64,000 nucleotides of DNA from Pseudoflavonifractor sp. An184. GTDB lineage: Bacteria > Bacillota > Clostridia > Oscillospirales > Oscillospiraceae. Below are positions 38,981-60,157 of this stretch, in pieces; position 1 is the stretch's first letter; each line of letters starts with the position of its first letter. The stretch is taken from NCBI RefSeq assembly GCF_002160305.1, contig NZ_NFKI01000006.1, positions 1-64,000 of the forward strand, given 5' to 3'. The position numbers and the translations under genes were made by a program. A model generated the notes under the pieces. The model did not search any database. It saw only the letters and a program-made list of their open reading frames with translations, and was not told the DNA's origin.

Positions 38981-40984
38981 TCATTTAGACTTATCTAGAA
39001 AGTTCAGACCTAAAAATCGTATTTTATCATGTTTCGTATTTCCGATTTTGTATCCCCATCTATTCTGTAAAAAATTCACAAGTTTTAAACCACGTTTTAA
39101 AATTTCGTCAGCGCCCCAATTCTCAAATTCCGTTAATTCAATTTCTGCATATGTTCCATAGCGGTATCCTATATGATTTCCTTTGCCATCTCTTTTGTCA
39201 GGAAAAGGTAAATTTGCTAAACGACTATTTTTTATAGTTGAAACTGCTACAAAATTTCCAAGTGAGCTTCTAAGGGCGTGTTTTTGCTTTTGACTATATG
39301 GTTTGAAAGCATCTACCCAATATTGTTGACGTGCGCGTTGTGGATAAATATGCTCAATGGAATCATAGCCTTTCCCAAAATATACATCCCGATCTAACTT
39401 GCTAATATGAGATTTAGACATATTTTGTAGGCTAATTTCATACTCGCATAAGAAATACCTCAAAAAATTTCCCTCATAAAACCCGGTTTTACTATAATAA
39501 AGAATAATATTCCTATTAATATTTTCGTCAGCTATAAGGGCGTTGACTAACTTATCAATTTTTTCTTTTACCCCTGATACTACCATATCACCTCGATTTA
39601 ATTTCTTTAGAATATCCACAACCTCTAAATTAATCATATTATAGTTCCCATCGAGGCATTCAAAGGGAATAAAAATAACCAAAAACAAAAATTTTTCAAA
39701 CGATTTCAAAAACTTTAACAGTACGCCATCATCCCTACAATGTTGCAAACAAGATAATAAAAGAACTTTATGACTATCAACCTGCATTGCACTAAAACGA
39801 CGAGTTATGTTCGCTTTTCTGGGCATTAACAGATAGTGAATTTTGGTTATATATTCCACAATTTCTTCATTGTAAGATGAATCTGCTGGGTAATTGATGA
39901 TGTGCCATATTTTTATACAATTTTTTAAGCTTTCAATATACTCCATTACATTTTCTGTTGTAAGAGTACCTGATGGGATTTTATTAACAACAAAGTATTC
40001 CTCAAGCAAATAATTGTATAATGCAATACCAGGGCCGTAGAAAACAGAGCTTTTACGACGATAATTCTTATATATTTCACTTATTTGATCACAAAAATAA
40101 AGATGGAAATGAGCATCTAAGAACTCATCATCCGGGAGATAATTATTCTTGTCTTGCCCCAATATATGATATATATCTTTCCAACACTCATTAATATCTC
40201 TACGAAGTCGAGCTTTTATATCTGGAGAAACATCAAACAATGTCGATAGATATATGAGACGATTCTTTAGCAATTCCAGGTGTGACAAGGGTTTTCCACG
40301 GTTGTTCATGGTTTCAAAAGTAACATATACATCAATATCAGACGAGATTTCATATGTGTTAAAAAGGAATTGTTGAGTAATCTTTTTATATACTTTCTCA
40401 ATTTCTTTTTCATCCATCTTTTCTAGCTGTGTTTCAAAATACGATACAGCATTCATCAAATTAAGAGTATACGTTGTTTTTTGTATATCAGGTAACTCGT
40501 TTTTATTGTTGCTATAAATTTGATTAACAAGATAATTATAGCTTGGATTGTTTAATTCATATCCAAAAAGATAGGTGCAAGATTTGTTTTCATCTTTACT
40601 TTCCGAAATAAATCTCTTTCGTATCTCTGATATTCCCGTATAATTTAATTGGGAAATCCCTCTTTTTTCCATGATGTTGATTATAGATTTTATAAGCAGT
40701 ATGGATGTTGTTAGTCTCTGCTGTCCATCGACAATATAATATGGAGAGTATTTTTTAGACTCAATGAGCCAAACGTCATCTATCCAATTGCAATAAATCT
40801 TTTCTGAAACGGGTTCTAAAGTTAACACACCAACGTAGTGATTGTTTTGTCCGTCAAGCCGCATTAAATCATTCCAAAATTCTCCGACTTCTTTTTCTGT
40901 CCATGCAAAGCCTCTCTGATAGTCAGGAATTCTAAAGATTCTATCCGTAAATATTTTTGAGAGTGTCATCAGCTGATCGTTCAT
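38981..40984 (-). CDS. DUF262/DUF1524 (GmrSD-like) restriction-type protein
   Basis: A 667-aa soluble protein. The N-terminal DUF262 domain shows FRIPDYQRGFAWTEKEVGEFW near residue 17 and YYIVDGQQRLTTSILL near 82, a ParB-like NTPase fold. The C-terminal DUF1524 HNH-type nuclease shows SIEHIYPQRARQQYW and a later LGNFVAVSTIKNSRLANLPF. This pairing is that of GmrSD type IV restriction enzymes and related phage-defence proteins. The gene is AT-rich compared with the chromosome and is the only intact gene of the outer element. GGGAGGGAAG stands just upstream of the ATG. The target DNA modification cannot be told from sequence. Confidence 0.85.
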   Translation of the reverse strand: MNDQLMTLSKIFTDRIFRIPDYQRGFAWTEKEVGEFWNDLMRLDGQNNHYVGVLTLEPVSEKIYCNWIDDVWLIESKKYSPYYIVDGQQRLTTSILLIKSIINIMEKRGISQLNYTGISEIRKRFISESKDENKSCTYLFGYELNNPSYNYLVNQIYSNNKNELPDIQKTTYTLNLMNAVSYFETQLEKMDEKEIEKVYKKITQQFLFNTYEISSDIDVYVTFETMNNRGKPLSHLELLKNRLIYLSTLFDVSPDIKARLRRDINECWKDIYHILGQDKNNYLPDDEFLDAHFHLYFCDQISEIYKNYRRKSSVFYGPGIALYNYLLEEYFVVNKIPSGTLTTENVMEYIESLKNCIKIWHIINYPADSSYNEEIVEYITKIHYLLMPRKANITRRFSAMQVDSHKVLLLSCLQHCRDDGVLLKFLKSFEKFLFLVIFIPFECLDGNYNMINLEVVDILKKLNRGDMVVSGVKEKIDKLVNALIADENINRNIILYYSKTGFYEGNFLRYFLCEYEISLQNMSKSHISKLDRDVYFGKGYDSIEHIYPQRARQQYWVDAFKPYSQKQKHALRSSLGNFVAVSTIKNSRLANLPFPDKRDGKGNHIGYRYGTYAEIELTEFENWGADEILKRGLKLVNFLQNRWGYKIGNTKHDKIRFLGLNFLDKSK

Positions 40985-41290: not shown

Positions 41291-41906
41291 ATTTGCAACC
41301 ATGTCCCTGGAGAATGGGATGGATGTGAAAACGCTCTCAACGATCATCAGCCATGTGTCGTCGGCCACGACACTGAATACCTACACCCACATCACCGACG
41401 AGATGTGGCAGAAAGCGGCGGTGAACATTGACCGAGGCATCGCAAAGGCGGAGGCGCAGCCAGAGCCGGAACAGGAGACGGAGAAGTCCCATGCACAAGA
41501 ACCATTCACCCCTGTTTTCCCAGTCCGCCGCAGGCCGGGAACCGGATATGTCAAGCAGCTCAACGACCACCTCTGGGAGGGGAGATACTCCCCGGTGTGG
41601 CCGGACGGGAAAAAGCACTCCCGGAATGTCTATGGCCGTACGGAGGAGGAGTGTGAGGAGAAACTGAAAGCGCTGATCCTAGAAATGAAGGCGGAGATCG
41701 CCGCCCTGCGCTCGGGGGCCAGCACGGAGTACCCAGACGGGGTAAGCCCCAAGAAGAAAGCCATTGCCGCCTACCTGCGGGAGAATCCCGGTGTAACCAG
41801 CAAGTCCAGGATCGCCAGAGAGCTGAACATTGACCGGTCTACCGTACAGAAATATTACGACGAAATTCGGTCAGAGATTAGGGAGGGGAAAGTCCAGGCA
41901 TCATGA
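41291..41906 (+). pseudogene. Integrase C-terminal fragment, related to the 56.4-kb integrase
   Basis: From TTTGCAACCATGTCCCTGG on, this copy matches the last 197 codons of the integrase at 56407-57981: the final part of the catalytic domain (with GH changed to SH in TLSTIISHVSS), the Tyr region NTYTHIT, and the whole extra C-terminal region. The Arg and HxxR parts are absent. The missing catalytic His and domains mean it cannot recombine alone. An AAAGGAGG lies 15 nt before the first in-frame ATG, so a C-terminal peptide might still be made. Confidence 0.85.
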
Positions 41907-41942
41907 AAAGTCAAAACCAGATGTAAAAGTACCCCCTCAAAT

Positions 41943-42125
41943 TCTGCGCCGCTGTAAACAAGAAGAAGGGCCCCCTTAAAAAAGGGCGGCCCTTCCTGTG
42001 GTCAAAGTAAAAATCCGTCTGTGGTATTTCTGTGGTCAGATCAAAGGCGACAGTTTTTGATGATACTTTTCAAAGTAAGAAGTAAAGAAAAAGTGCTGTT
42101 TTCTTGCAAAAACAGCACTTTTTTG
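41943..42125. promoter_or_regulatory. Att-flanking block of the outer element with arm-like sites
   Basis: This block matches 59787-59966 at the right end. It has a hairpin with GGGC-rich arms at about 41965-41994, TGTGGTCA at 41997-42004, the composite site TGTGGTATTTCTGTGGTCA at 42020-42038, and a hairpin AAAAAGTGCTGTTTT with its complement just before the att core. Repeated TGTGGT words beside an att core are expected of integrase arm-binding sites. Confidence 0.6.
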
Positions 42126-42170
42126 GTCGGAGTGCCGGGATTCGAACCCGGGGCCTCTTGGACCCGAAGG
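42126..42170 (-). other. Attachment site: 3' half of tRNA-Pro
   Basis: 45 bp identical to 59967-60011, which is the 3' part of the tRNA-Pro(CGG) gene from the anticodon loop to the encoded CCA. Identity ends at GGACCCGAA in the anticodon loop. The 5' half of the tRNA is missing, so this is a duplicated att core and not a gene. Confidence 0.92.
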
Positions 42171-43545: not shown

Positions 43546-44364
43546 ATGAATGAGAAATTAAAGGAGCTATGTGAAAGTATTACACAGCATATAAGACGAG
43601 CGCCATATAAATGGGGCTTCTGGTGCGTTACAATCACTTTTATTTTGATTCCATTACTTATCTGGATCTTATATTTTATAGGTGATAATTGCCGTATCTT
43701 GATAAATACAAGTTTATCTGTCGGAGAGGCGCTTGGATTCTATGGCGCATCATTAGCAGCTATAGGAACAATCGCTTTAGGTGTTGTATCAATTATACAG
43801 AATAATCGAGCCACGCAGCTAAACTTGAAATTGATAGAAGAGCAACACAGGGCACAACTCCCTGTTTTCAGCGTCTTAAATACTACAGATTTAAGATACA
43901 AAATTGAAGATCAAAAATGGGATATTGGTTTTTTACACGGAGCTGATATTGGCTTTGAACTACAGAATAGTGCTATTGGCGGGCATGAAATAGGGTATAT
44001 TACATTTGGGCTAAAAAATATTTCAAATTTCCAGATCTATGGGCTTAAAATTGTGAAAGCTACGCTCCATACGATAGGAGGAACTGATTTCCAAAGGTTT
44101 ATGCCTGTATTTGAAGCACAAAATGGTATGGCGTCGGAGGAAACGAAAAAAATTAGTGTTTCATTTATTGCTTCATCCCACAATTTTATGGGGATAGATA
44201 AGAACAAGGTTCAAATCAATCTTGCTTTTGAGTGTTATAACCCCCAGAACTATCGAGTCCAATTTCATATAAGTTTTATAATTTATAACGGAAAACTCAG
44301 AAGCCTTGGAGAACAAGTACTTTCAGAATATTGCAAGGAGGCCACCACAGATGACAAAACTTGA
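43546..44364 (+). CDS. Two-pass membrane protein of the restriction locus, unknown
   Basis: A 272-aa AT-rich gene. The product has two hydrophobic segments (about 25-48 and 60-85), a short coiled stretch, then about 180 residues probably on one side of the membrane, with many strands and no known motif. Such N-terminal membrane pairs with a soluble domain occur in phage-defence effectors, but no family was recognised. Its 3' end overlaps the mod gene by 14 bp, so it is likely cotranscribed. It lies directly after the DUF4391 remnant and differs from its GC-rich neighbours in base use. Confidence 0.7.
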   Translation: MNEKLKELCESITQHIRRAPYKWGFWCVTITFILIPLLIWILYFIGDNCRILINTSLSVGEALGFYGASLAAIGTIALGVVSIIQNNRATQLNLKLIEEQHRAQLPVFSVLNTTDLRYKIEDQKWDIGFLHGADIGFELQNSAIGGHEIGYITFGLKNISNFQIYGLKIVKATLHTIGGTDFQRFMPVFEAQNGMASEETKKISVSFIASSHNFMGIDKNKVQINLAFECYNPQNYRVQFHISFIIYNGKLRSLGEQVLSEYCKEATTDDKT

Positions 44365-46306
44365 CGGCAAAACGCCGGATTTGGCGGCGGAGAATATAGA
44401 GCAGCTGCGGCAGATCTTCCCGGATGTGTTTGAGGAGGGAAAGATCGACTTTGACAAGCTCAAGCAGGTGCTGGGAGAGTATGTGGACGACGAAAAGGAG
44501 CGCTACAACTTCACCTGGAACGGCAAGGGAAAGGCCCTGCGGCTGGCGCAGGCCCCCACTACCGGCACCCTGCGCCCCTGTGAGGCAGAGAGCAAAAACT
44601 GGGACGACACCCAGAACCTCTACATTGAGGGCGACAATCTGGAAGTGCTCAAACTGCTGCAGAAGAGTTACCATGGGAAGATCAAGATGATCTATATCGA
44701 TCCGCCCTACAACACCGGCGGTGACTTTATCTATCCAGATGACTTCGTTGACAGCGTTGAGAATTACAAGCGCATTACCAGCCAGGTGGATGATGAAGGT
44801 AGAAATACGGGAACAAATACAGAATCCAATGGACGCTACCACACTGACTGGCTTAACATGATGTACCCTCGCTTGCGGTTAGCCCGTAATTTACTTAAGG
44901 AAAATGGGACGATTTTTATCAGCATTGATGAGCATGAGGTCAATAATTTGAAGAAGCTGTGCAATGAAGTTTTTGGTGAGATGAACTTCCTTGCGTGTAT
45001 TGCTAATATTAACAATCCAAAGGGACGCTCGGACGAGAAAAACTTTGCGACCGCTTTTGAATATATTATGGTTTATCAAAAGAGAGAGGCGTCGCTGATA
45101 GGATTTGCCCCTGAGGAAAATGTGATAAAACGATACAATAAAATTGACGATGACGGAAGGCGCTATAGACACATTGATTTACGCAAGACCGGAGATAGTG
45201 ATAAGCGCTCTGATAGACCTAATATGTTCTATTATTTTATGTATTGTGAAAAAACAGGCGATTTCTATCCAACTTATGAAAGTACCATTCCGGAAGGCTA
45301 TATAAAGATTGCTCCAATGAAAGATGATGGAACAGAAGGCCGATGGCGTGTGGGATTAGAAACTGCGCTTGAGAGAAAAAGTGTACTGCTTCCCAATTAT
45401 ATGCAGATTAAAAATAGATGGACGATTGTAGAAAAAGACTATCTCACAGACGATTTGCGTGTTAAACCTACTACTGCATGGACTTTTAAAGATGTGAATA
45501 GTGAAAGAGGTACAGAGCAGTTTATTGATTTGAAATTTGATAAAGAGGTTTTTCCGAGGCCAAAACCACTTGGAACAATAATGCGGCCACTTACATTGGC
45601 TACAAATGGGAATGATATTATACTCGATTTTTTCTCCGGTTCATCCACCACTGCTCACGCAGTCATGCAGATCAATGCTGAGGACGGTGGTAATCGCAAA
45701 TTCATCATGGTGCAGCTACCGGAACCCTGTGCGGATGGCACCGAGGCAGCCAATGCAGGCTTTGAAAACATCTGTGAGATCGGCAAGGAACGCATCCGCC
45801 GGGCCGGAGAGAAGATCAAGGCGGAGGTCGAGGAGCAGAACGCCCAGTTAAAAATTGACGAGGAACCCAGGAAAGTCCCGGACATCGGCTTTAAGGTGTT
45901 CAAACTGGACAGCTCCAACCTGAAACAGTGGCAGCCGGACTATGACGACCTGGAGACCACCCTCTTTGACAGCATCAGCAACTATGTGGAGGGCCGCAGC
46001 GAGCTGGATGTGGTCTATGAGATCATGCTGAAAATGGGCATGGAGCTCACCTGGCCCCTGGAGACCCACATCATCGCCAGCCGGAATGTGTACGACATCG
46101 GCATGGGCGCCCTGATGATCTGCCTGGACGACCACATCACCGCCGAAGTGGCCGAAGGCATGGCGGCGCTCCGCCAGGAGGAGTCCTCCGAGGTCTGGCG
46201 GGTCGTGTTCAAAGACAACGGCTTTGAAAGCGACAGCGCCAAGGTCAACATCAAGGAGATTCTCAAACGCGCCGGCCTGGAAGAGGACGCGTTTACGACA
46301 GTGTGA
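44351..46306 (+). CDS. mod: Type III restriction-modification Mod subunit (adenine methyltransferase)
   Basis: A 651-aa beta-class N6-adenine methyltransferase that gives a type III system its target. The catalytic DPPYNTGGD lies near residue 117 and the SAM-binding DFFSGSSTTAHAVM near 425, with YIEGDNLEVLKLLQ before the first. Bases 44351-44735 and 45660-46306 are GC-rich, whereas 44740-45655, which holds the target recognition domain, is AT-rich: the gene is a mosaic, as after exchange of the recognition domain. AAGGAGG lies 9 nt before the ATG. The res gene follows after one inserted gene. Confidence 0.95.
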   Translation: MTKLDGKTPDLAAENIEQLRQIFPDVFEEGKIDFDKLKQVLGEYVDDEKERYNFTWNGKGKALRLAQAPTTGTLRPCEAESKNWDDTQNLYIEGDNLEVLKLLQKSYHGKIKMIYIDPPYNTGGDFIYPDDFVDSVENYKRITSQVDDEGRNTGTNTESNGRYHTDWLNMMYPRLRLARNLLKENGTIFISIDEHEVNNLKKLCNEVFGEMNFLACIANINNPKGRSDEKNFATAFEYIMVYQKREASLIGFAPEENVIKRYNKIDDDGRRYRHIDLRKTGDSDKRSDRPNMFYYFMYCEKTGDFYPTYESTIPEGYIKIAPMKDDGTEGRWRVGLETALERKSVLLPNYMQIKNRWTIVEKDYLTDDLRVKPTTAWTFKDVNSERGTEQFIDLKFDKEVFPRPKPLGTIMRPLTLATNGNDIILDFFSGSSTTAHAVMQINAEDGGNRKFIMVQLPEPCADGTEAANAGFENICEIGKERIRRAGEKIKAEVEEQNAQLKIDEEPRKVPDIGFKVFKLDSSNLKQWQPDYDDLETTLFDSISNYVEGRSELDVVYEIMLKMGMELTWPLETHIIASRNVYDIGMGALMICLDDHITAEVAEGMAALRQEESSEVWRVVFKDNGFESDSAKVNIKEILKRAGLEEDAFTTV

Positions 46307-46317
46307 GGAAAGAAAGT

Positions 46318-47196
46318 ATGAGACAGAGAATTTCAGAAAAAAATAAATTCCCTTCCTTTGATTTATTTGATGAATATCAAAAGTTGGAAGCTATTTTTTC
46401 AAATTGGCGCACCATGGGTACATATGATGAATGGAGAACTCGAAAGCCGCCTATGTATACTTTTGAGGACTATATTCGCGATCTGCAATTTGAAAACTGG
46501 AATCTGCGGGGAACATTTATCAATTTACAGGAGATGCGTTCCAAACTCAACATTGCGCCAGAAGATTTTGTAGAAAAAAAGGTTTCTGAAGAACAATTAT
46601 TAGATTTCATACAATTTCTCTTGAATTGTTGGTTGCGGATTCACGCAACTATCGAAACAGCACAAGCACATGCAATAGCATATATCGCAGACAAAAATGC
46701 GCTTGAAATGCTATTCCAAAATTGTAAATATCTTTTGGAAAAATTTCATTGCAAATGTCAGGTAGACGAAGAAAACAATGAAGTATATGTGATTTTCAAA
46801 GATGATTTAGCGACAATCATTTCCCAGAAAGATCCTGATGTTGAACCCAGCCTGACCGAATATAATCGAATTGATAATTGTGGAAATATAAGGCGAAAAG
46901 GTGAGATACTTTGTACGCTATCTAAGAAATTAGAAGCTGTAGAATCGCAAATCAAAGGAACAGAATTTTATCCTCTCTATAACGATACTACCTTTTTGCT
47001 TAACAAAATCGGCGCCCGACATTGGACGGGAAAAGATAAATTAGCCAATGCTACTTTTATGAAAATGTCACCAGACGAACTTGAAAAATGGTATGATACA
47101 ACATTCAACTTAGTTGTGTCTTGCCTTGCTGCAGTTCCATATTTAACGGCTAAGGATAAAATCAAGGAAATTAAGCAGACGGGGGTTGACAAATGA
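46318..47196 (+). CDS. Unknown protein between mod and res
   Basis: A 292-aa soluble protein not recognised. It is AT-rich and predicted mostly helical, with Trp/Tyr-rich stretches (WRTMGTYDEWRTRKPPMYTF) and no signal, membrane segment or nuclease motif that can be seen. The ATG at 46318 has GAGG 9 nt upstream; a GTG overlapping the mod stop is an alternative. Its stop overlaps the res start (ATGA), so the three genes are translated together. It may be a specificity, regulatory or extra defence subunit. Confidence 0.75.
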   Translation: MRQRISEKNKFPSFDLFDEYQKLEAIFSNWRTMGTYDEWRTRKPPMYTFEDYIRDLQFENWNLRGTFINLQEMRSKLNIAPEDFVEKKVSEEQLLDFIQFLLNCWLRIHATIETAQAHAIAYIADKNALEMLFQNCKYLLEKFHCKCQVDEENNEVYVIFKDDLATIISQKDPDVEPSLTEYNRIDNCGNIRRKGEILCTLSKKLEAVESQIKGTEFYPLYNDTTFLLNKIGARHWTGKDKLANATFMKMSPDELEKWYDTTFNLVVSCLAAVPYLTAKDKIKEIKQTGVDK

Positions 47197-50183
47197 AACT
47201 CCAATTTGAAGCCAACCTCCAATATCAGGAGCAAGCAGTTTCCGCTGTGGTAGATCTCTTTCGCGGCCAGACGCCAAAACGGAGCGTATTCACCGTCACA
47301 ATGGAGGATGACGCAGGGCAGATGACCACAGATAACGGTATTGCCAACAAGCTGGAACTGATCGAGGATGAGATCCTGGAAAACCTCCAGGCGGTGCAGT
47401 TGCGCAACGGCCTGCCCCAGGCCAAGATGCTGAAAAAAGGGGCCTGTGATTTTGACATTGAGATGGAGACTGGCACCGGAAAGACCTATGTCTATCTGCG
47501 CACCATCTTTGAACTGAACAAGGCCTACGGTTTTAAAAAGTTCATCATTGTGGTGCCAAGCATCGCAATTAAAGAGGGAGTGGCCAAGTCCCTGGAGATC
47601 ACCAAGGAACACTTCCAGACCATCTATAACAATGTGGTCTATGACACCTATATTTACGATGGCAGCAAGCCGGAGGAGGTACGCTCTTTCGCTGTCAATG
47701 ATAACATCTCCATTATGGTCATCAATATCGCCGCCTTTCGAAAGAGCTTTGACGATCCGGAGAAAGAAAATAAGGCCAATATTATCCACCGGGCCATTGA
47801 CAAACTTAACGGAATGCGCCCCATCAGCCTGATCCAGGAGACCAATCCAATCGTCATCGTGGACGAGCCCCAGAGCGTAGAGGGCAAAGGCGCCACGGCC
47901 TCTAAAAAAGCTATGGAATCCCTCAACGCCCTGTGTACCCTGCGTTACTCCGCCACCCATGTGGAAAAGCACAATTTGGTATACAAACTGGACGCGGTGG
48001 ACGCCTTCGATCTGGAGTTGGTAAAGCAGATCGAGGTAGCCAGCTTTGAGAGTCTGGACTACCACAACAAGGCGTATATGAAACTGTTGTCGGTGGACAA
48101 CAAGAAGTCTCCCATTACGGCCAAAATCGAGTTGGACTGTGAGGTCAAGGGTACGATCAAGCGCAAAGCGGTAACCGTGCGCCAGGGGGACGACCTGTCC
48201 GAGAAGCTGTCCGGCTATCGGGAAGTGTACAACGGCTATGTGGTAGACGACATCTATTGTGAGAAGGGCAATGAGTATGTCAGCTTTACCACCAAACCGG
48301 AGATCCTGCGGATCGGTGAGGCGGTGGGCGACATTGATGACCGGGCCATCAAGGAACAGCAGATCCGCAAGACCATTGAGGAGCACCTGAACAAGGAACT
48401 GGTTCTGAACCGCCGGGGCATTAAGGTGCTGAGCCTATTCTTCATCGACAAAGTGTCCAACTACCGCTATTACGACACTGATGGGGTGCGCCACAACGGT
48501 ATCTACGCCGACATGTTTGAGAAGAACTATCGGGAACTGATCCAGCGGCCCAAGTATCGGACGCTGTTTCAGGATCAGGACATTGATTTGGAGTCCCTGC
48601 CCCATGAGGTGCATGGAGGATATTTTTCCGGCGACAAGAAGGGCGGAAACTCTGACAAGGAGTGGAAGGACACCAGCGGCACTACGGCTGTAGACGAGTC
48701 GGCCTACAACTTGATCATGCGCGACAAAGAAAAGCTACTGTCCTTTGACAGTAAGCTCCGTTTCATTTTCTCTCACTCAGCCTTGCGGGAGGGCTGGGAT
48801 AACCCCAATGTATTTCAGATCTGCACCTTGAATGAGACGAAAAGCGAAGTTAAAAAGCGTCAGGAAATTGGACGTGGCCTACGGTTATGTGTCAATCAGA
48901 ACGGTGAGCGGCAGCATGGTTTTGCTATCAACACGCTGACTGTCATGGCCAATGAGAGTTATGAAAGGTTTGCCGCAACCTTGCAGAAAGAATATGAGCA
49001 GGATGAGGGTATCCGCTTTGGCCTTCTGGAAAGCCACAGCTTTGCCAATATTCCCATTCAGCAGCCGGACGGTTCTATGGCTTATCTGGGTGCTGAGAAG
49101 TCAGAACATATCTATCAGGCATTCAAAGAGTGCGGCTACCTGGACGAAAAGGACAAGGTGACCGATGCGCTGAAGATTGCACTGAAAATGAATACCCTGC
49201 AGGTTCCAGTGGAGCTGGTCGAGCATAAGCATGCCATCGCCGGTGTATGCAAGAAGGCTGCCAGTGGCCTGAATATCAAACCTGCAAATGATAAGCGGAC
49301 AGTTCACCTGAACAAAGAGCGTTTTCTGAGCGAGGAATTCAAGGAACTCTGGGATCGAATCAAATACAAGACGACATACAGGGTAGATTTTGACTCTGAA
49401 AAGCTGGTAGAACAGTGCTGCGAGAAGATGCAGTTGGATCTGGATGTAGGGGCGGCCAAGTTGATGTACACCAAAGCGAAGGTGCAGGTGTCCGAGGGCG
49501 GTGTGGACACCACTGAAACCCAACGGCTCTCCGTAAAGACCACCGATGGCAAGGAGCAGTTGCCTGACATCATCACTTATCTGCAAAATCGAACTGGCCT
49601 GACCCGCAGAACCATCGTAAAGATCCTGACTGAGAGCAAGACGCTTAATCTGTTCAAAAAGAATCCCCAGGCGTATATGGATCAAGTAGCGAAGTTGATC
49701 AGTTCCACTATGCAACTCTTCATTTTGGATGGCATCAAATACACAAAATTGGGGGACACAGAGTTCTATGCCCAGGAACTCTTTGACTCAGAGGAACTCA
49801 CCGGATACCTTGAGCGAAATATGTTTGAGAGCCATCGTTCTGTCTATGACTATGTGGTCTATGACAGCGATGTGGAACACGGATTTGCGGAAAAGCTTGA
49901 AAGCAACGAAAGTGTAAAAGTATATGCCAAACTTCCCAATTGGTTCAAGGTTCCCACGCCCCTCGGTAGCTACAACCCGGATTGGGCTGTCGTCATTGAG
50001 GATAATGGACTCAATAAACTCTACTTTGTTGTAGAAACGAAGGGAAGTATTGAGGGCAAGGATCTTCGTCCTAAAGAACAAGCAAAGATTCGGTGCGGAG
50101 AAAAACATTTTGCCGCTCTTGGTAATGATGCAAAGTTCATGAAAGCTGATAGTTTCCAAAGGTTTACCGAGCGTTTGGTTTAA
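47193..50183 (+). CDS. res: Type III restriction-modification Res subunit
   Basis: A 996-aa helicase-nuclease that, with Mod, translocates or slides on DNA and cuts unmodified phage DNA. Superfamily 2 motifs are visible: Walker A METGTGKT at 91-98, DEPQ near 226, a Ser-Ala-Thr region (LRYSATHV), and motif VI QEIGRGLRL near 570. The C-terminal PD-(D/E)xK nuclease shows NPDWAVVIEDNG and FVVETKGS near 930-950. Length and order match intact Res subunits, so the system is probably active. Confidence 0.95.
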   Translation: MKLQFEANLQYQEQAVSAVVDLFRGQTPKRSVFTVTMEDDAGQMTTDNGIANKLELIEDEILENLQAVQLRNGLPQAKMLKKGACDFDIEMETGTGKTYVYLRTIFELNKAYGFKKFIIVVPSIAIKEGVAKSLEITKEHFQTIYNNVVYDTYIYDGSKPEEVRSFAVNDNISIMVINIAAFRKSFDDPEKENKANIIHRAIDKLNGMRPISLIQETNPIVIVDEPQSVEGKGATASKKAMESLNALCTLRYSATHVEKHNLVYKLDAVDAFDLELVKQIEVASFESLDYHNKAYMKLLSVDNKKSPITAKIELDCEVKGTIKRKAVTVRQGDDLSEKLSGYREVYNGYVVDDIYCEKGNEYVSFTTKPEILRIGEAVGDIDDRAIKEQQIRKTIEEHLNKELVLNRRGIKVLSLFFIDKVSNYRYYDTDGVRHNGIYADMFEKNYRELIQRPKYRTLFQDQDIDLESLPHEVHGGYFSGDKKGGNSDKEWKDTSGTTAVDESAYNLIMRDKEKLLSFDSKLRFIFSHSALREGWDNPNVFQICTLNETKSEVKKRQEIGRGLRLCVNQNGERQHGFAINTLTVMANESYERFAATLQKEYEQDEGIRFGLLESHSFANIPIQQPDGSMAYLGAEKSEHIYQAFKECGYLDEKDKVTDALKIALKMNTLQVPVELVEHKHAIAGVCKKAASGLNIKPANDKRTVHLNKERFLSEEFKELWDRIKYKTTYRVDFDSEKLVEQCCEKMQLDLDVGAAKLMYTKAKVQVSEGGVDTTETQRLSVKTTDGKEQLPDIITYLQNRTGLTRRTIVKILTESKTLNLFKKNPQAYMDQVAKLISSTMQLFILDGIKYTKLGDTEFYAQELFDSEELTGYLERNMFESHRSVYDYVVYDSDVEHGFAEKLESNESVKVYAKLPNWFKVPTPLGSYNPDWAVVIEDNGLNKLYFVVETKGSIEGKDLRPKEQAKIRCGEKHFAALGNDAKFMKADSFQRFTERLV

Positions 50184-52431: not shown

Positions 52432-52851
52432 TTGAGCCGAAAAGAGAAGTTTGCCTTTTACCTGACGCCGGAGAAGAAAGTACTCCTGGAACGACGGTAT
52501 CAGGAGGACGGAAGCCGGAGTCTCACTGCTTTTATCGAAAACGCCGTGGACTTTTACCTGGACTACCTCAGCGCCAACAGTGCCGGACTATTCCTCCCTA
52601 CTTCCCTCAAGTCCTATCTGGACGGGCGGCTGGGACGGTTGGAGGACCGGCTGTCCTCGCTCATATTCAAACAGGCGGTGGAGCAGGACATGGTAGCCGG
52701 CATCCTGGCAGATGCGTTTCAGTTCAGCGAAGATGACTTGCACCGCCGGCGAGCGGAGAGTGTTAACAATGTGAAGAAGACCAACGGTCGCATCTCACTG
52801 GAGCAGCGGGTGCGGGAAGCTTGGGAGGAGGACAATGAGTGGCAAGACTGA
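52432..52851 (+). CDS. Mobilisation accessory protein (MobC/NikA-like)
   Basis: A 139-aa protein with an N-terminal ribbon-helix-helix-like segment (KFAFYLTPEKKVLLERRYQE) and a helical C-terminus. It stands just before the relaxase gene and overlaps it by 13 bp, the usual place for the relaxosome accessory protein that bends oriT. The start is a TTG with AAAGGAG 7 nt upstream. The family was inferred mainly from context. Confidence 0.6.
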   Translation: MSRKEKFAFYLTPEKKVLLERRYQEDGSRSLTAFIENAVDFYLDYLSANSAGLFLPTSLKSYLDGRLGRLEDRLSSLIFKQAVEQDMVAGILADAFQFSEDDLHRRRAESVNNVKKTNGRISLEQRVREAWEEDNEWQD

Positions 52852-54794
52852 TTGTCAAAAGCCCATACCTCAAATGCGGTGGGAGCAATTCTGTCAGCGG
52901 CTACCTGCGGTACATCGGAACCAGAGAGCGTGTAGAGCTACTCCCAGGTAACCGTCCGCCCACCAGAAAACAGGAGCAGCTCATCACAAAACTGGTAAAG
53001 GATTTTCCTAATAGCCAAGAGTTGGATGAGTATTCTGACTACGCAACCAAGCACACCAAAGCCAATGCCTCGACGTTCATCACAAGAGCACTGGAAGAAA
53101 ACTGGGCAGCGGTGCAGCAGTCGGAGGGCTACATGAAGTACATCGCCACCCGACCAAGGGCGGAGCGGCTGGGGGATCACGGTCTCTTTGGTGACGAGGA
53201 TGGCGTTGACTTGGCAACAACAATGGATGAATTAGATCGCTACACCGGAAATGTGTGGACGCACATTCTCTCCCTGAAACGGGAGGATGCTGCTCGCCTT
53301 GGCTATGACAACGCCAAAGCGTGGATGAATCTACTCCGGGCCAACCGCAATGACATCGCCGCCGCTATGAACATCCCGCCGAATCACTTCCGCTGGTACG
53401 CTGCCTACCACGATGAGGGCAAGCACCCCCATGTCCATATGATGGCATGGTCGACGGTGCCAGATGAAGCCTATCTGACGCGGGAGGGCATCCGCAAGAT
53501 CAAGTCCACACTGGCCAATCAAATATTTAGGCAGGAGATGCTGCACACCTATGAGCAAAAGTCCTACTCCCGGGATGAACTGGTGTGGGAAGCCCGCCGT
53601 GCAATCCATCGTCTTATCCAGGAGATGGCCCGGAGCATCTACACCTACCCGGAGGCGGAAGAACTGATGCAGACGCTCTCTGCACAATTGGAAACGGTCA
53701 AGGGAAAGAAGTCCTACGGCTACCTCCCCAAGCCGGTGAAGAAAACCGTGAATGAGGTGGTGGACCGGCTGGAGGAGCTGCCGGTAGTCCGGGAGTGCTA
53801 CAATCAGTGGTGTGCCCTCCAAAGTGAAGTCGACAGCTACTACCACGACAAGACTAGAGAAAAGAAAAAGCTGTCCCAGGAGAAAGAGTTCCGGCAGATC
53901 AAGAACGCCGTCATCCAGGAGGCGGAGCGCATCCGGCTGGGGGAAATCACCTTCGAGGATGCCGACCTGACTGGCCATGATGAACCAGAACAGGGGTGGG
54001 GAGAGTCCTATGCCTGCTGGGAACTGCGGCAGATCATCCGGGACGAGTCCCTTTCTCTGGCAGACCGGGACGACGCGGTGGAGGAATTGGAGCGGCTGGC
54101 AGAGCGAGGCGACGCCTATGCTCAATACTTGATGGGTCAGCTCTATCGGGACGGCCATCTGCTGATCCCGGACAGTCAAAAGGCGAAAGACTGGTTCACC
54201 CAGGCGTCAGGGCATGGCCTGCCGGAGGCCCAGTATGCCCTGGGTAAGATTCTTCTCTCTAATGATCCCGAAGTCCGAGAACCGGACGAGGGCATCCGTT
54301 GGTTGAAAGAAGCGGCGGCCCAGGGAAATTCCTGGGCCGCCTACCGGCTGGGCAAGGAGTATCTCGGCGGCGAGGTTGTGTCAAAAGATGCAACCAGAGC
54401 CACAGCGTGGCTCACCCAGTCAGCGGAGGCGGGCAACCAGTACGCCCAGTACATGCTGGGCAAGCTGTACCTGACAGGGCAGGGAGTGACTCACGACCAG
54501 ACCCAGGCAATGGTTTGGTTCGGCCGTTCCGCCGCCCAAGGAAACCAGTATGCCCAACTCTTCCTGGAGCGGCAAAATGAAATCCGTCCGCCCTCCGTAA
54601 TGCTGGCGGCCACCCGCCTGCTCTACCACATGAGCCGGATCTTTGAGAACCACTCTCTGCCCCAGTCCGGTGCCGGCCTGCACATCGACCGAAAGCGCCG
54701 CCAGCAGCTCCGGGAAAAGAGGATCGCGCTGGGCCACAAGCCAAACGACCATGAGGAAGAACAAAGCCAGGGTATGACTATGAAGGGGTGGTAA
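52839..54794 (+). CDS. MobP-type relaxase with Sel1-like repeats
   Basis: A 651-aa conjugative relaxase that would nick oriT and bind the cut strand. The three-His metal motif is in YAAYHDEGKHPHVHMMAWS (His 196, 198 and 200 region), with an N-terminal SVSGYLRYIGTRERVE block; the likely nicking Tyr lies early (YLRYIG). After a helical middle, residues about 420-590 hold about five Sel1-like repeats (RGDAYAQYLMGQLYRDGHL, AGNQYAQYMLGKLYLTGQGV), which usually bind proteins and are an unusual addition. The start is a GTG with GGAGGAGG upstream. Confidence 0.88.
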   Translation: MARLIVKSPYLKCGGSNSVSGYLRYIGTRERVELLPGNRPPTRKQEQLITKLVKDFPNSQELDEYSDYATKHTKANASTFITRALEENWAAVQQSEGYMKYIATRPRAERLGDHGLFGDEDGVDLATTMDELDRYTGNVWTHILSLKREDAARLGYDNAKAWMNLLRANRNDIAAAMNIPPNHFRWYAAYHDEGKHPHVHMMAWSTVPDEAYLTREGIRKIKSTLANQIFRQEMLHTYEQKSYSRDELVWEARRAIHRLIQEMARSIYTYPEAEELMQTLSAQLETVKGKKSYGYLPKPVKKTVNEVVDRLEELPVVRECYNQWCALQSEVDSYYHDKTREKKKLSQEKEFRQIKNAVIQEAERIRLGEITFEDADLTGHDEPEQGWGESYACWELRQIIRDESLSLADRDDAVEELERLAERGDAYAQYLMGQLYRDGHLLIPDSQKAKDWFTQASGHGLPEAQYALGKILLSNDPEVREPDEGIRWLKEAAAQGNSWAAYRLGKEYLGGEVVSKDATRATAWLTQSAEAGNQYAQYMLGKLYLTGQGVTHDQTQAMVWFGRSAAQGNQYAQLFLERQNEIRPPSVMLAATRLLYHMSRIFENHSLPQSGAGLHIDRKRRQQLREKRIALGHKPNDHEEEQSQGMTMKGW

Positions 54795-56406: not shown

Positions 56407-57981
56407 ATGTCGGGAAAGAGAAAGAAAGGGTCGGGAACCATCCGCCTTCGGAAAGACGGCCGCTGGGAGGGGCGGGTAGTTATCGGCTATGATGAGGCGG
56501 GCAGTCCAAAAACAAAAAATGTACTGGCAAAGACGAAGCGGGAGTGCGCGGAAAAGCTGAAGAAGCTGAAAGAGCAGTGCGGCGGCTTCCGCCCTGTTCA
56601 AGTCCGGCCTGAGATGCGGTTCGGGGACTGGTTAGAGTACTGGTACCAGAACTTCTCCAAGCCAAAGCTGCGGCAAAGTACACAACTTAGTTACGAGGGA
56701 TGGATCTACAACCGCCTGATCCCCGGCGTGGGAGACATCCCTCTGAACAAACTGACCCAGGCAGATCTCCAGACCTTCTTCCGCAGTATGAAAGAAGCCG
56801 GTCGGATGACTAATGTAGACAAATGCGGGAAGGGGCTGTCAGACCGCTCAGTGCGAAGCTGCTACGCCGTCTGCCAGATGGCGCTGGACAAGGCAGTAGA
56901 GGAGCGGCTGATCCACAGCAACCCGGCCATCGGGTGCAAGCTGCCGCCCCTGAAGGGCAAGGAGATGAAAATCCTGACCCAAGAGGAGATCCAGCGGTTC
57001 CTCATTCAGGCCAAGGCGGAGGGAATGTACGAGCTGTTCCTGCTGGAGCTGACCACCGGAATGCGCCGGGGGGAACTGCTGGCCCTTCGCTGGGAGGACC
57101 TGGACTTCGCCACCGGAAAGCTCCGCATCGACAAACAGGTCAACCCGGTAGGCGGCAAGCTAGTCATCAGCGAACCGAAAACAAAGGCCGCCAACCGCAC
57201 CATTATCCTGCCGCCTGCCATGTTGGAGGTGCTGGCGGAGTACAAGAGGGGCATCTTCTCGGACTTGATGTTTCCCTCCCGCACGAAACCGAACCAGCCC
57301 ATCGACCCGGGCTATGTGCGCAAACGGCTCCAGGTGATCTTAAAGCGGGCAGAGTGCAAGAGGATAAGATTCCACGCTTTACGCCATACTTTTGCAACCA
57401 TGTCCCTGGAGAATGGGATGGATGTGAAAACGCTCTCAACGATCATCGGCCATGTGTCGTCGGCCACGACACTGAATACCTACACCCACATCACCGACGA
57501 GATGTGGCAGAAAGCGGCGGTGAACATTGACCGAGGCATCGCCAAGGCGGAGGTGCAGTCAGAGCCGGAGCAGAAGGTGGAGAGACCCCATGCACAGGAA
57601 ACATTCACCCCGATCCTTCCGGCCCGCCGCAGACCCGGCACGGGCTATGTCAAGCAGCTCAACGACCACCTCTGGGAGGGCAGATACTCTCCGGTGTGGC
57701 CGGACGGGAAAAAGCACTCCCGGAATGTCTATGGCCGTACGGAGGAGGAGTGTGAGGAGAAACTGAAAGCGCTGATCCTGGAAATGAATGCGGAGATCGC
57801 CGCCCTGCGTTCTGGGGCCAGCACGGAGTACCCCGACGGGGTAAGCCCCAAGAAGAAAGCCATTGCCGCATACCTGCGGGAGAATCCCGGCGTAACAAAT
57901 AAATCCAAAATCGCAAGGGATTTGAACATGAATCGCACGACAGTGCAGAAATACTATGACGAGGTTCAGGCGGAGTTTTAA
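56407..57981 (+). CDS. Tyrosine recombinase with extra C-terminal DNA-binding domains (integrase 2)
   Basis: A 524-aa integrase. Arm-binding domain 1-50 (GSGTIRLRKDGRWEGRVVIG), core-binding domain 70-175, catalytic domain 185-375 with Arg 220/221 in TTGMRRGEL, HALRHTFA (His 323, Arg 326), GH 348-349 and Tyr 359. Beyond the usual end, residues 405-460 (GTGYVKQLNDHLWEGRYSPV followed by a TEEECEEKLKAL helix) look like a second copy of the arm-binding domain, and 480-520 form a helix-turn-helix (NKSKIARDLNMNRTTVQKYY). The last 197 codons recur at 41.3 kb. Confidence 0.93.
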   Translation: MSGKRKKGSGTIRLRKDGRWEGRVVIGYDEAGSPKTKNVLAKTKRECAEKLKKLKEQCGGFRPVQVRPEMRFGDWLEYWYQNFSKPKLRQSTQLSYEGWIYNRLIPGVGDIPLNKLTQADLQTFFRSMKEAGRMTNVDKCGKGLSDRSVRSCYAVCQMALDKAVEERLIHSNPAIGCKLPPLKGKEMKILTQEEIQRFLIQAKAEGMYELFLLELTTGMRRGELLALRWEDLDFATGKLRIDKQVNPVGGKLVISEPKTKAANRTIILPPAMLEVLAEYKRGIFSDLMFPSRTKPNQPIDPGYVRKRLQVILKRAECKRIRFHALRHTFATMSLENGMDVKTLSTIIGHVSSATTLNTYTHITDEMWQKAAVNIDRGIAKAEVQSEPEQKVERPHAQETFTPILPARRRPGTGYVKQLNDHLWEGRYSPVWPDGKKHSRNVYGRTEEECEEKLKALILEMNAEIAALRSGASTEYPDGVSPKKKAIAAYLRENPGVTNKSKIARDLNMNRTTVQKYYDEVQAEF

Positions 57982-58054
57982 CGGCAGGGCACAGAGTAAG
58001 TTTAAAGAAATGTAAATAATTTGTAAAATAGCACTCGTGACTGGTGAGTGCCAG

Positions 58055-58083
58055 TTGACATGATCGAAAAAATGTTCTATAAT
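58055..58083 (+). promoter_or_regulatory. Consensus promoter of the RT-associated RNA
   Basis: TTGACA (58055-58060), 17-bp spacer, TATAAT (58078-58083): an exact sigma-70 consensus with ideal spacing. The start site is expected near 58090, more than 320 nt before the RT ATG, which leaves room for a long non-coding RNA. A GCACTC/GAGTGC hairpin lies just upstream at 58031-58051. Confidence 0.85.
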
Positions 58084-58089
58084 AAAAAT

Positions 58090-58400
58090 GCCTCACACGA
58101 AAGGTGTGGGGGAGGAATATTGTTGTCAACCCTTTCTTCATAATTTCTGTCAGGAGACTGCACAGGAGAGCTTGAAGTTGGAGTGACTGACTGGGATCCC
58201 ACCAGATGGTGGCCGCCGCCAGACACATCCAGAAGGTAGTGACACAAGCTTCCCGCTCAATTATAACATGATTGAGCATTGCAAACTGGGCAGTCGGTTT
58301 CCTTAGACACACACCAAACGGGTGAAGCAGGAGACTGCGTCAAACTGTATATCCGCCGACTGAGGGATGCTGCCCCCCGTGTCGGCGGATATTGCAATTG
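58090..58400 (+). ncRNA. Structured RNA upstream of the reverse transcriptase, DRT-like
   Basis: No plus-strand gene fits here, but stems do: CCTCACAC paired with GTGTGGGG at 58091-58111; CCACC/GGTGG at 58199-58212; GCTCAAT/ATTGAGC at 58255-58277; and a perfect 12-bp stem 58349-58360/58381-58392 that ends just before the RT ribosome binding site. The word CAGGAGACTGC occurs at 58151-58161 and 58328-58338, a direct repeat with a period of 177 nt. On the antisense strand the unit between them has one fully open frame. The layout resembles the template RNA of DRT2-type defence systems; the boundaries are estimates. Confidence 0.7.
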
Positions 58401-58412
58401 TAAGGAGATTTC

Positions 58413-59777
58413 ATGACAAAACAGGAATGGTTGACCTCGGAAACTGTGATAGAGAAAAGTCGAAGATCATACGCGCATTTTGATTGTCGAACGGATATTG
58501 CCCAGCAGCGGTCCTATATATCCGTCCCCCAAAATATAGAACAGCATGGGTTTTACCCATTCATACATTATCAGCAGAGACAAGTTAAATTTAATAAAGA
58601 GACTGGACCAAAAGAGAAAAAACGAGATATTTGCTATGCGTCGCATATTGATCGCTGCATTTATCAGTATTATAGTTTCTTATTGGGGGAAAAATACAAC
58701 CAGCGCGTAGTGAAAGATGGGCTATCAAATGTCGCTGTAGCATATCGGACAGATTTACATAAAAACAATATTCATTTTGCTAAGCGAGTAATCCAGTTTA
58801 TTCGTAACAACTCGCCCTGCTACATTATGATAGGAGATTTCACTGGTTTCTTTGACCACCTGGATCATGGATATTTGAAGCAGCAATGGTGCTCGCTGAT
58901 GGGGGTGTCTGAACTCCCGAAAGACCACTATAAAGTGTTTCGAAGTGTGACCCGTTACAGTACATGGGAATTATCAGATTTATTAGCTTTGAACAGCCTA
59001 AAAGATAACCGGGCAGGACGTAGAACGCTGAATTCGATGTTGCGTGTGCTGACACCAGAAGAATATAAGGCTAATTCTAATAGGAAACATATCAAACCGA
59101 ATCCAGATGCATTTGGGATACCACAAGGTTCCCCAATCAGTGGACTACTTGCAAATGTTTACATGTTGGAAATAGACAAGACAGTCAATGATTTGATAAC
59201 AGAGAAAAATGGCCTATATATGCGGTACAGTGATGACTTTATTGTTGTGTTGCCAGATACGGAATCAACAACTCGCCAAATTCTCAAGAATGTATCTACC
59301 AGCTTCAATAGCATTCCTGGTTTGGCATTGGAACCGAATAAGACTCAGTATTTCCGATATGAGGACACGAAGTTAGAGAACTGCGGCTCTTTGTTTGGGG
59401 TTCCTTTGGAAGGGCAAAAGAGATTCATTAACTTCCTTGGGTTTACTTTTGATGGTAAAACTGTATCGATTCGAATGAAAACTCTGGGTAAGTATTATTA
59501 TCGAATGTACAGTAAGGCAAAGACGATACAGAAAAGTGGCAATTATTCCCCCAAAGGAAAACACATTAGCAATAAAAATTTATATGCTCTTTATTCAATC
59601 AAAGGTGCAAAGGGAAGCTGGATTACTCAAGTGGATGGAACGCAAAAATGGCATTCAGGAAACTTCCTATCGTATGTTCAACGAGCAACAAAAGAATTTG
59701 GATCACATGAATCACTGGAACGAGGTACTAAAAACCATATGGCAAAAATACGAAGGGCACTAGAAGGGAAAAAATAA
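58413..59777 (+). CDS. Reverse transcriptase of the defence-associated (DRT/UG) kind
   Basis: A 454-aa RNA-directed DNA polymerase. Motif A is CYIMIGDFTGFFDHLDH (Asp 142), motif B FGIPQGSPISGLLANVYM near 235-251, motif C YMRYSDDFIVVLP with YSDD at 272-275, and motif D/E INFLGFTFDGK near 339-349. There is no maturase or HNH domain, no intron structure follows, and the retron VTG-type region is not seen. AAGGAG lies 5 nt before the ATG. It is AT-rich and preceded by a structured RNA with its own promoter. Likely role: phage defence by copying the upstream RNA. The exact UG class needs a tree. Confidence 0.85.
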   Translation: MTKQEWLTSETVIEKSRRSYAHFDCRTDIAQQRSYISVPQNIEQHGFYPFIHYQQRQVKFNKETGPKEKKRDICYASHIDRCIYQYYSFLLGEKYNQRVVKDGLSNVAVAYRTDLHKNNIHFAKRVIQFIRNNSPCYIMIGDFTGFFDHLDHGYLKQQWCSLMGVSELPKDHYKVFRSVTRYSTWELSDLLALNSLKDNRAGRRTLNSMLRVLTPEEYKANSNRKHIKPNPDAFGIPQGSPISGLLANVYMLEIDKTVNDLITEKNGLYMRYSDDFIVVLPDTESTTRQILKNVSTSFNSIPGLALEPNKTQYFRYEDTKLENCGSLFGVPLEGQKRFINFLGFTFDGKTVSIRMKTLGKYYYRMYSKAKTIQKSGNYSPKGKHISNKNLYALYSIKGAKGSWITQVDGTQKWHSGNFLSYVQRATKEFGSHESLERGTKNHMAKIRRALEGKK

Positions 59778-59966
59778 TACTCAGAATCTGCGCCGCTGTA
59801 AACAAGAAGAAGGGCCCCTTGAAAAAGGGCGGCCCTTCAAGTGGTCAAAGCTAAGAACCGTTTGTGGTATTTCTGTGGTCAAAACAAAAACACCTATTTT
59901 TGATAACACTTTTCGGAGGAAAAAGTAAAGAAAAAGTGCTGTTTTCGCAAGAAAACAGCACTTTTT
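59778..59966. promoter_or_regulatory. Right att-flanking block with arm-like sites and terminator hairpins
   Basis: From 59787 this matches the block at 41943-42125. It contains a GGGC-rich hairpin (about 59808-59838), GTGGTCAAA at 59841-59849, the composite site TGTGGTATTTCTGTGGTCA at 59863-59881, and a perfect hairpin AAAAAGTGCTGTTTTC with its complement (about 59931-59966) that acts as the terminator of the tRNA on the minus strand. Confidence 0.7.
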
Positions 59967-60043
59967 TGGTCGGAGTGCCGGGATTCGAACCCGGGGCCTC
60001 TTGGACCCGAACCAAGCGCGATACCAAGCTTCGCCACACCCCG
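59967..60043 (-). tRNA. tRNA-Pro(CGG)
   Basis: On the minus strand the sequence folds as a full cloverleaf: acceptor CGGGGTG with CACTCCG (one G-U), D arm, anticodon stem CTTGG/CCAAG with loop TTCGGGT (anticodon CGG), variable loop, and T arm CCGGG-TTCGAAT-CCCGG. Discriminator A and an encoded CCA follow. It is the integration site of the element: its 3' half is duplicated at 42126-42170. Confidence 0.95.
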
Positions 60044-60060
60044 ATTGTGACAGCTATCTA

Positions 60061-60089
60061 ATTATAGTGATTTTCCCTTCTCCTGTCAA
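60061..60089 (-). promoter_or_regulatory. tRNA-Pro promoter
   Basis: On the minus strand TTGACA (60084-60089), 17-bp spacer, TATAAT (60061-60066): exact consensus, about 10 bp before the expected transcript start and 18 bp from the mature 5' end. Confidence 0.9.
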
Positions 60090-60157
60090 GAGGAATATCC
60101 CAAACTTATCAGGAATAACCTTACTCTATCCAAAGTGTTGCACGGGAGGGAATGCAG

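Follow-up and report, generated by a model that had tools for sequence, protein, structure and literature searches.

The stretch of Pseudoflavonifractor sp. An184 DNA that was analyzed, referred to below as the window, comprises the first 64,000 nucleotides of contig NZ_NFKI01000006.1. Near its right end stand a promoter, a structured noncoding RNA (ncRNA) and a reverse transcriptase (RT) gene, which an earlier note, made from the sequence alone, had described as ~310 nt of hairpin-rich sequence between a perfect promoter and a 454-aa RT. The sigma-70-type promoter was found at 58055-58083 (plus strand) as an exact match to TTGACA-17-TATAAT; perfect TTGACA/TATAAT pairs with a spacing of 16-18 occur three times in the 64-kb window versus 0.00 expected in shuffles, and a promoter-like sequence is seen by eye (uncounted) at the same place 5′ of homologous RNAs. 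Judging by its position, this promoter probably serves both the RNA and the RT. The ncRNA, supported by Rfam, fold and covariation, occupies about 58090-58398 (plus strand), its likely 5′ end lying ~7 nt past the -10 element and its likely 3′ end at a short tail. The RT gene (58413-59777, plus strand) encodes 454 aa with PQGSPIS and YSDD motifs; RVT_1 is its sole Pfam match at E 0.01, in line with the claim that it carries neither a maturase nor a nuclease domain, and Rfam at gathering scores places zero group II intron parts in the window, where the earlier note had seen no intron ends. The upstream stretch had also been said to hold no plus-strand gene, which is true for ORFs of at least 80 aa; a minus-strand ORF (57659-58312) overlaps it, and its frame there is that of the predicted neo gene described below.

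Family of the reverse transcriptase

Profile searches, structure matches and phylogeny assign the window RT to DRT2 (UG2). Against the NCBIfam Drt2 equivalog NF041746.1 it scores 394.1 bits (393.8 in the genome search), just above the cut-off of 390; in PADLOC, Drt2 (5e-145) is followed by RT_UG39 as the next class (1.6e-21), and Drt2 outscores Drt9 by 482 to 72 bits (DRT9 and DRT10 are taken here to be classes UG28 and UG17). A PDB search returned the solved DRT2 chains at 1.7e-55 and the next match at 8e-9. The TIGR04416 group II maturase model gives 71.6 bits, below its cut-off of 300, and the retron models listed by NCBIfam give at most 43.4 bits; the RT is thus not seen among group II intron or retron enzymes, a placement that the earlier note had weighed against its own reading.

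The window RT is 36% identical to a piece of Klebsiella DRT2 over 274 aa. In a tree of 32 RTs, rooted on the Klebsiella-side group, a branch labeled 100/99 separates the DRT2 of Klebsiella, plus six more DRT2s carried on plasmids, from 25 rows; these are mostly Clostridia and Lactobacillus but include a Sporosarcina, a Lactiplantibacillus plasmid and three copies borne by phages. The tree neighbors of the window RT are L031, from a genome of the same genus (88% identity), and L005, from an uncultured Clostridia bacterium. A profile search of the window's genome found one full-length Drt2 and two weak RT matches. Across 394 genomes of the order, the Drt2 cut-off was exceeded in two, the window's own and G149, and the same-genus genome G331, which carries L031, falls slightly under it with 388.4 bits. 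Viral contigs scanned with the window RT yielded zero matches.

Structure and conservation of the ncRNA

The hairpin-rich character of the upstream stretch is borne out by its predicted fold, which for 58090-58400 reaches -123.1 kcal/mol compared with -95.1 ± 5.6 in 100 shuffles (z -5.0), and by a match of 58089-58162 to the Rfam family RT-6 (RF03027; 57.5 bits, cut-off 46.7). Of 14 further loci given to the Rfam search, eight match RT-6, and neither RT-6 nor RT-12 was found in L021, L022, L062, L066 or L067. The Photobacterium locus instead matches RT-12 (RF03016), which covers the 3′ part of its DRT2 ncRNA (L061:1340-1452), suggesting that RT-6 and RT-12 are pieces of DRT2 ncRNAs from different clades.

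Covariation was counted in a 17-row alignment of the 5′ part (excluding L004, L024, L028, L030, L031 and L062) and in 19-row alignments of the 3′ part (excluding L004, L017, L024 and L028); L017 was dropped from the latter because its 3′ part is longer and the same pseudoknot is not visible in it by eye. In the 5′ handle hairpin (58091-58111, plus strand; 58091-58098 pairing with 58104-58111), 89.7% of cells are paired across the 17 sequences and all eight pairs have changed on both sides, with four of five measures above all 500 shuffles and the fifth above all but 3. The hairpin over the -10 element of the template (58255-58277, plus strand; 58255-58264 with 58268-58277) belongs to the predicted fold and covaries more weakly: 83.9% of cells are paired and both-side changes occur in 5 of 10 pairs, and, while none of 500 shuffles had as many cells with a change, 123 of 500 had as many pairs with one.

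Downstream of the template, all on the plus strand, GGGCAGT (58288-58294) forms a seven-pair pseudoknot with GCTGCCC (58369-58375) in the loop of the 3′ hairpin; across 19 sequences 95.5% of its cells are paired and six of seven pairs have changed on both sides, with poor pairing as aligned in L021 (4/7) and L022 (3/7). Between the two strands lies a "tower"-like hairpin (58296-58336; 58296-58302 with 58330-58336; 77.4% paired, 7/7 pairs double-changed), and the 3′ hairpin itself (58349-58392; 58349-58360 with 58381-58392) is 96.9% paired with 10 of 12 pairs double-changed. Taken together, 90.8% of the cells of the 29 pairs of the 3′ part are paired in the 19 sequences, among which neither the L018 group of Lactobacillus nor an outgroup is represented; 25 pairs have changed on both sides, and none of 500 shuffles was as high on any measure. 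Slid controls were 33-49% paired. All these pairs were picked by visual inspection of the sequences or taken from the fold predicted for the window, a choice that biases the comparison with slid controls in their favor. The upstream RNA is therefore conserved in homologs with covariation, which, added to the NCBIfam, PADLOC and PDB results, upholds the earlier reading of the locus as a DRT2-type ncRNA and RT. That reading is right yet incomplete: the 3′ tail and the repeated ATTG of the proposed jump site escaped it, as did the neo frame and its junction promoter.

Predicted neo gene at the template junction

On the minus strand of the ncRNA template, the promoter elements TTGACA (58124-58129; TGTCAA on the plus strand) and TATAAT (58260-58265; ATTATA on the plus strand) are both exact and stand in the wrong order in the genome; only after a template jump would they lie 17 bp apart. 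Head-to-tail joining of copies at a 17-bp spacing gives a unit of 159 nt (58119-58277, minus strand), i.e., 53 codons, with one frame that is stop-free in tandem. Spacers of 15, 16, 18 and 19 do not give a stop-free window unit, and spacers of 14 and 20 do, so that the junction cannot be placed from the open frame by itself.

The same geometry recurs across homologous loci, among which the window is represented by L004. One scan gave 26 loci, 25 of them with upstream DNA (L027 was left out), and 19 of the 25 show both motifs; with the 17-bp spacer these 19 have units of 120-159 nt in nine lengths, all multiples of 3 and open in the same register, whereas shuffling the interior leaves this frame open in 4-20% of cases. 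Three further loci agree (L030, 126 nt; L031, 159 nt; L062, 165 nt), bringing the total to 22, mostly from Clostridia, with units of 120-165 nt that are all divisible by 3 and open in the same frame. Among the 22, TGTCAA is exact in 21, and ATTATA is exact in 13 and carries one mismatch in 9. A sense-strand reading of the repeats was rejected: in that direction only 6 of 19 loci give an open concatemer, versus 19 of 19 for the antisense. The idea of a sense-strand junction promoter was likewise dropped, the published neo being antisense.

A fixed rule was then applied to 36 loci including outgroups, of which 27 pass versus 40 of 1080 pieces of shuffled upstream DNA; near-copies (L004 and the window; L006 and L028; L011, L012 and L024) inflate such locus counts. 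At spacings of 15, 16, 18, 19 and 21, only 6, 2, 6, 2 and 3 of the 36 pass, compared with 21 and 25 at spacings of 14 and 20, which leave the same remainder modulo 3. Outside these counts stand L027 and L060 (without upstream DNA), L032 and L033 (partial matches) and weaker RT matches. Fewer than three junction bases are shared in four of the 27 passing loci: L029 and L069 pass with weaker motifs, L017 passes with exact motifs and one shared base in a row, and L020 probably passes with the wrong motif pair. In L016, the pair used (159 nt) ties on mismatches with another (87 nt) that is also open.

Nine of the 36 loci fail the rule. Four are from Lactobacillus (L018, L019, L023, L026) and give open units of 183 or 192 nt at a degraded -10, a post hoc choice that was not counted. 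L059, L064, L065 and L068 also fail, L065 and L068 being open at spacings of 16 and 18. The rule found no pair in L022, most likely because its upstream piece was cut at 340 nt and its -35 lies at -333; with 420 nt of upstream DNA it gives an open unit of 156 nt. Collectively, these comparisons provide strong evidence for a predicted hidden neo gene in a divergent, mostly Clostridia clade. As a separate observation, L018 and L023 are two DRT2 RT genes of Lactobacillus johnsonii (NZ_GG670120.1), each with its own ncRNA, on the same strand with ~5.7 kb between them. The -35 is degraded in one of them (AGTCAA), the RT frame of the other is only 366 aa, and their post hoc repeats are 183 and 192 nt.

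The amino acid sequence of the predicted Neo peptide is poorly conserved beyond the residues that the promoter forces, and its hydrophobicity exceeds the mean of its own interior shuffles in all 22 loci. Of 53 codons, 5 differ synonymously and 14 nonsynonymously between L004 and L031; by codon position the changes number 7/11/7, with no clear third-position excess in this pair. The start codon is not conserved: 11 of 22 loci have an ATG at the junction. By eye, the run most like a ribosome site in the window unit is AAAGGG, which precedes this ATG across the junction.

Proposed jump site and 3′ tail

Both ends of the template are marked by ATTG: ATTG-1 (58119-58122, plus strand), the proposed jump donor, where cDNA would end in ...CAAT, and the identical ATTG-2 (58278-58281, plus strand), 159 nt away, the proposed jump acceptor and primer binding site. 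ATTG stands at both template ends in 19 of the 22 neo-frame loci, the exceptions being L017, L022 and L025, and a shared ACA is absent from the window's junction diagonal. The Photobacterium locus, the nearest to Klebsiella here, has a unit of 111 nt and a shared run AGAT beside an ACA; the phage-borne copies L066 and L067, from a phage of Clostridioides and a phage scaffold of gut origin, have a GTAT junction repeat and stop-free units of 132 and 135 nt. Thus, the jump signal seems to vary from clade to clade against a constant spacing and frame, a generalization drawn from one or two loci for each type other than ATTG.

After the 3′ hairpin the ncRNA probably ends in a tail, TGCAAT (58393-58398, plus strand), that is complementary to ATTGCA at 58278-58283 and is also paired in the predicted fold, making it a candidate self-primer. 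Where the site is altered, the tail sometimes tracks it (ATTGGA/TCCAAT in L006, TTGAAA/TTTCAA in L021, CGAA/TTCG in L030). Summed over 19 sequences, of which 10 reach three bases only, the longest complementary run totals 79. Permuting the tails lowers this to 69.7, with 12 of 5000 permutations reaching the real value, and shuffling the letters lowers it to 55.2, with 0 of 5000 doing so; in the seven sequences without ATTGC the sum is 28 versus 22.5 (62 of 5000). On this basis, the tail could prime cDNA synthesis at ATTG-2.

Mobile element and genomic surroundings

The DRT2 locus is carried by an element at tRNA-Pro(cgg) (59967-60043, minus strand), which is the integration site and the right element end. 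A copy of the 3′ part of this tRNA (42109-42168) marks the left end within a 91-bp match (95.6%, 42080-42168), and the repetition of this 91-bp stretch at both ends indicates that the element spans about 42.1-60.0 kb (~18 kb). It contains two tyrosine integrases, a MobP3 relaxase and the methylase and restriction subunit of a type III system, with DRT2 last before the tRNA; the type III restriction-modification set accounts for the other defense genes said to lie in the element. This set (44306-50183) consists of an N6/N4 methylase of 666 aa and a Res subunit of 996 aa with RE_endonuc, and the 297-aa protein between them has no Pfam match at E 0.01. The MobP3-family relaxase (52839-54794) bears C-terminal Sel1 repeats, a tail that we know of in no other relaxase.

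To the left, an integrase fragment (ORF 41301-41906) runs straight into the same end sequence without a DRT2, which indicates that the place between integrase and attachment site can hold DRT2 as optional cargo and that elements have accumulated there. The two tandem ends at one tRNA-Pro (41301-42168 and 57900-60043), the left with a gap of ~70 bp and the right with DRT2 in that same gap, form a natural comparison with and without the cargo. A contig of Flavonifractor sp. An100 matches 57639-60100 at 99.3% and diverges past the tRNA, which points to recent transfer. The element is adjoined on the left by a 667-aa ORF (38981-40984, minus strand), the start of which presumably resembles DUF262-type restriction or defense proteins. 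Elsewhere, on the human-gut phage scaffold of L062, group II intron parts were identified by Rfam at 1460-1772 (minus strand), ~0.9 kb upstream of the DRT2 RT.

Proposed mechanism and alternative explanations

The preferred reading, held with a probability of roughly 0.9, is that the locus is a DRT2 (UG2) antiphage system of a Bacillota-type clade with a neo gene made at the repeat junction. It builds on the RT family, the RNA structure, the complementarities and the promoter and frame geometry described above, all of them conserved; cDNA synthesis, a phage trigger, transcription of the repeats, toxicity and defense would follow the Klebsiella model, and phage defense by the window locus itself is likewise suggested by analogy. 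One promoter would drive the ncRNA and the RT, and the RT would grip the ncRNA via the 5′ handle, the pseudoknot and the 3′ hairpin. The 3′ tail would anneal at ATTG-2 and prime cDNA synthesis as far as ATTG-1, whereupon the new cDNA 3′ end (...CAAT) could re-anneal to ATTG-2 and the template be recopied, yielding tandem 159-nt repeats. Once these were double-stranded, every junction would present TTGACA-17-TATAAT, RNA polymerase would transcribe the repeats into an mRNA with one never-stopping open frame, and the resulting repetitive hydrophobic protein, Neo, would halt the infected cell.

A different outcome would be that the RT is of the DRT2 family and the repetitive cDNA is itself the effector, acting as DNA in the manner of DRT9 and DRT10, the open frame being incidental. 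The reported repetitive DNA products of the DRT9 and DRT10 RTs (PMC12483538, PMC12632851) and the lack of conservation of the Neo amino acid sequence are consistent with this; it is nevertheless improbable, given that the junction promoter, the length of the frame and its stop-free register persist as the interior diverges, and that the RT resembles Drt2 far more than Drt9. Still smaller is the chance that the window holds a degenerate or inactive DRT2 copy, to which the ambiguous Neo start site might point: the RT is intact with its catalytic YSDD, the perfect promoters, RNA pairs and 3′ tail are kept, and the near-identical An100 copy (99.3% over 2.5 kb) suggests recent transfer.

There is a negligible prospect that the gene encodes the RT of a group II intron or a retron and that the RNA upstream is unrelated to it. 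The RVT_1 fold is common to these enzymes, and a score for TIGR04416 is indeed obtained, but that score is far below its cut-off, the listed retron models score lower still, Rfam at gathering scores detected no intron parts, and Drt2 models are ahead by hundreds of bits; the PADLOC, NCBIfam and PDB searches and the RT tree refute this identity.

Beyond the window, the evidence tips slightly toward a broader proposal, in which the Bacillota hold an ATTG-type DRT2 branch characterized by jumping at ATTG and by an encoded RNA tail that serves as primer and mimics the cDNA repeat end. Here, the jump would create the promoter and, in some members, also the ribosome-site/ATG pair of neo; jump signals (ACA, ATTG and, in two phage-borne copies, GTAT) would differ by clade, with promoter spacing and frame constant.

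Comparison with known systems

If correct, this interpretation makes the hidden gene readable in a divergent, mostly Clostridia clade and predicts how long its repeat is, where the jump occurs and what primes synthesis. A function is also suggested for Rfam RT-6, which would be the 5′ portion of this clade's DRT2 ncRNA, and such genes could be sought elsewhere by a simple rule: fixed promoter spacing, microhomology and a length that is a multiple of 3. A search by title and the start of abstracts found no paper on an ATTG-type DRT2 or on RT-6 as a DRT2 RNA; such clades may already be shown in the version of Tang et al. finally published in Science or in supplements, which lay outside that search. 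The 2024 preprint states that Neo could be annotated for the vast majority of KpnDRT2 relatives and that this was "more challenging" in divergent clades, which might therefore operate differently (PMC11100668).

The closest characterized system is KpnDRT2 of Klebsiella, in which neo is reported to lie on the strand opposite the ncRNA, with -35 and -10 elements that meet only when template copies join (PMC12039810, PMC11100668). The likeness to these accounts is extensive: both loci have a single RT after an ncRNA, under one promoter, and both ncRNAs have a 5′ handle, a 3′ hairpin and a pseudoknot, which in Klebsiella joins post-template RNA to the 3′ hairpin loop (PMC12039810). In both, the repeat junction forms a sigma-70 promoter with a 17-bp spacer (predicted from sequence in the window), the unit is divisible by 3 with one stop-free antisense frame, and the ncRNA 3′ end lies near the primer site. 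The two differ in the RT, that of the window being 36% identical and on the opposite side of the 100/99 branch, in the jump repeat (ATTG in the window versus ACA-1/ACA-2 in KpnDRT2) and in the unit (159 versus 120 nt). In the window, the primer site finds its complement in the 3′ tail itself; Klebsiella DRT2 is described as priming from a short DNA stretch on the ncRNA 3′ end (PMC12039810), a scheme of which an encoded tail would be a variation. Furthermore, a ribosome-site-like run and ATG meet (by eye) across the window junction, whereas the Klebsiella ribosome site and start are reported 13 nt downstream of the -10.

The Rfam RT-6 model is only 75 nt long and ends inside the template, without the pseudoknot or the 3′ hairpin of the window ncRNA. 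With DRT9 and DRT10 the window locus shares an RT and ncRNA and, as proposed here, repetitive cDNA; its RT scores far lower against them, and those systems are described as making homopolymers or short repeats by protein-primed synthesis (PMC12632851). Judged from its sequence, the window DRT2 is thus a variant of the known system, set apart by its jump motif and its 3′ tail.
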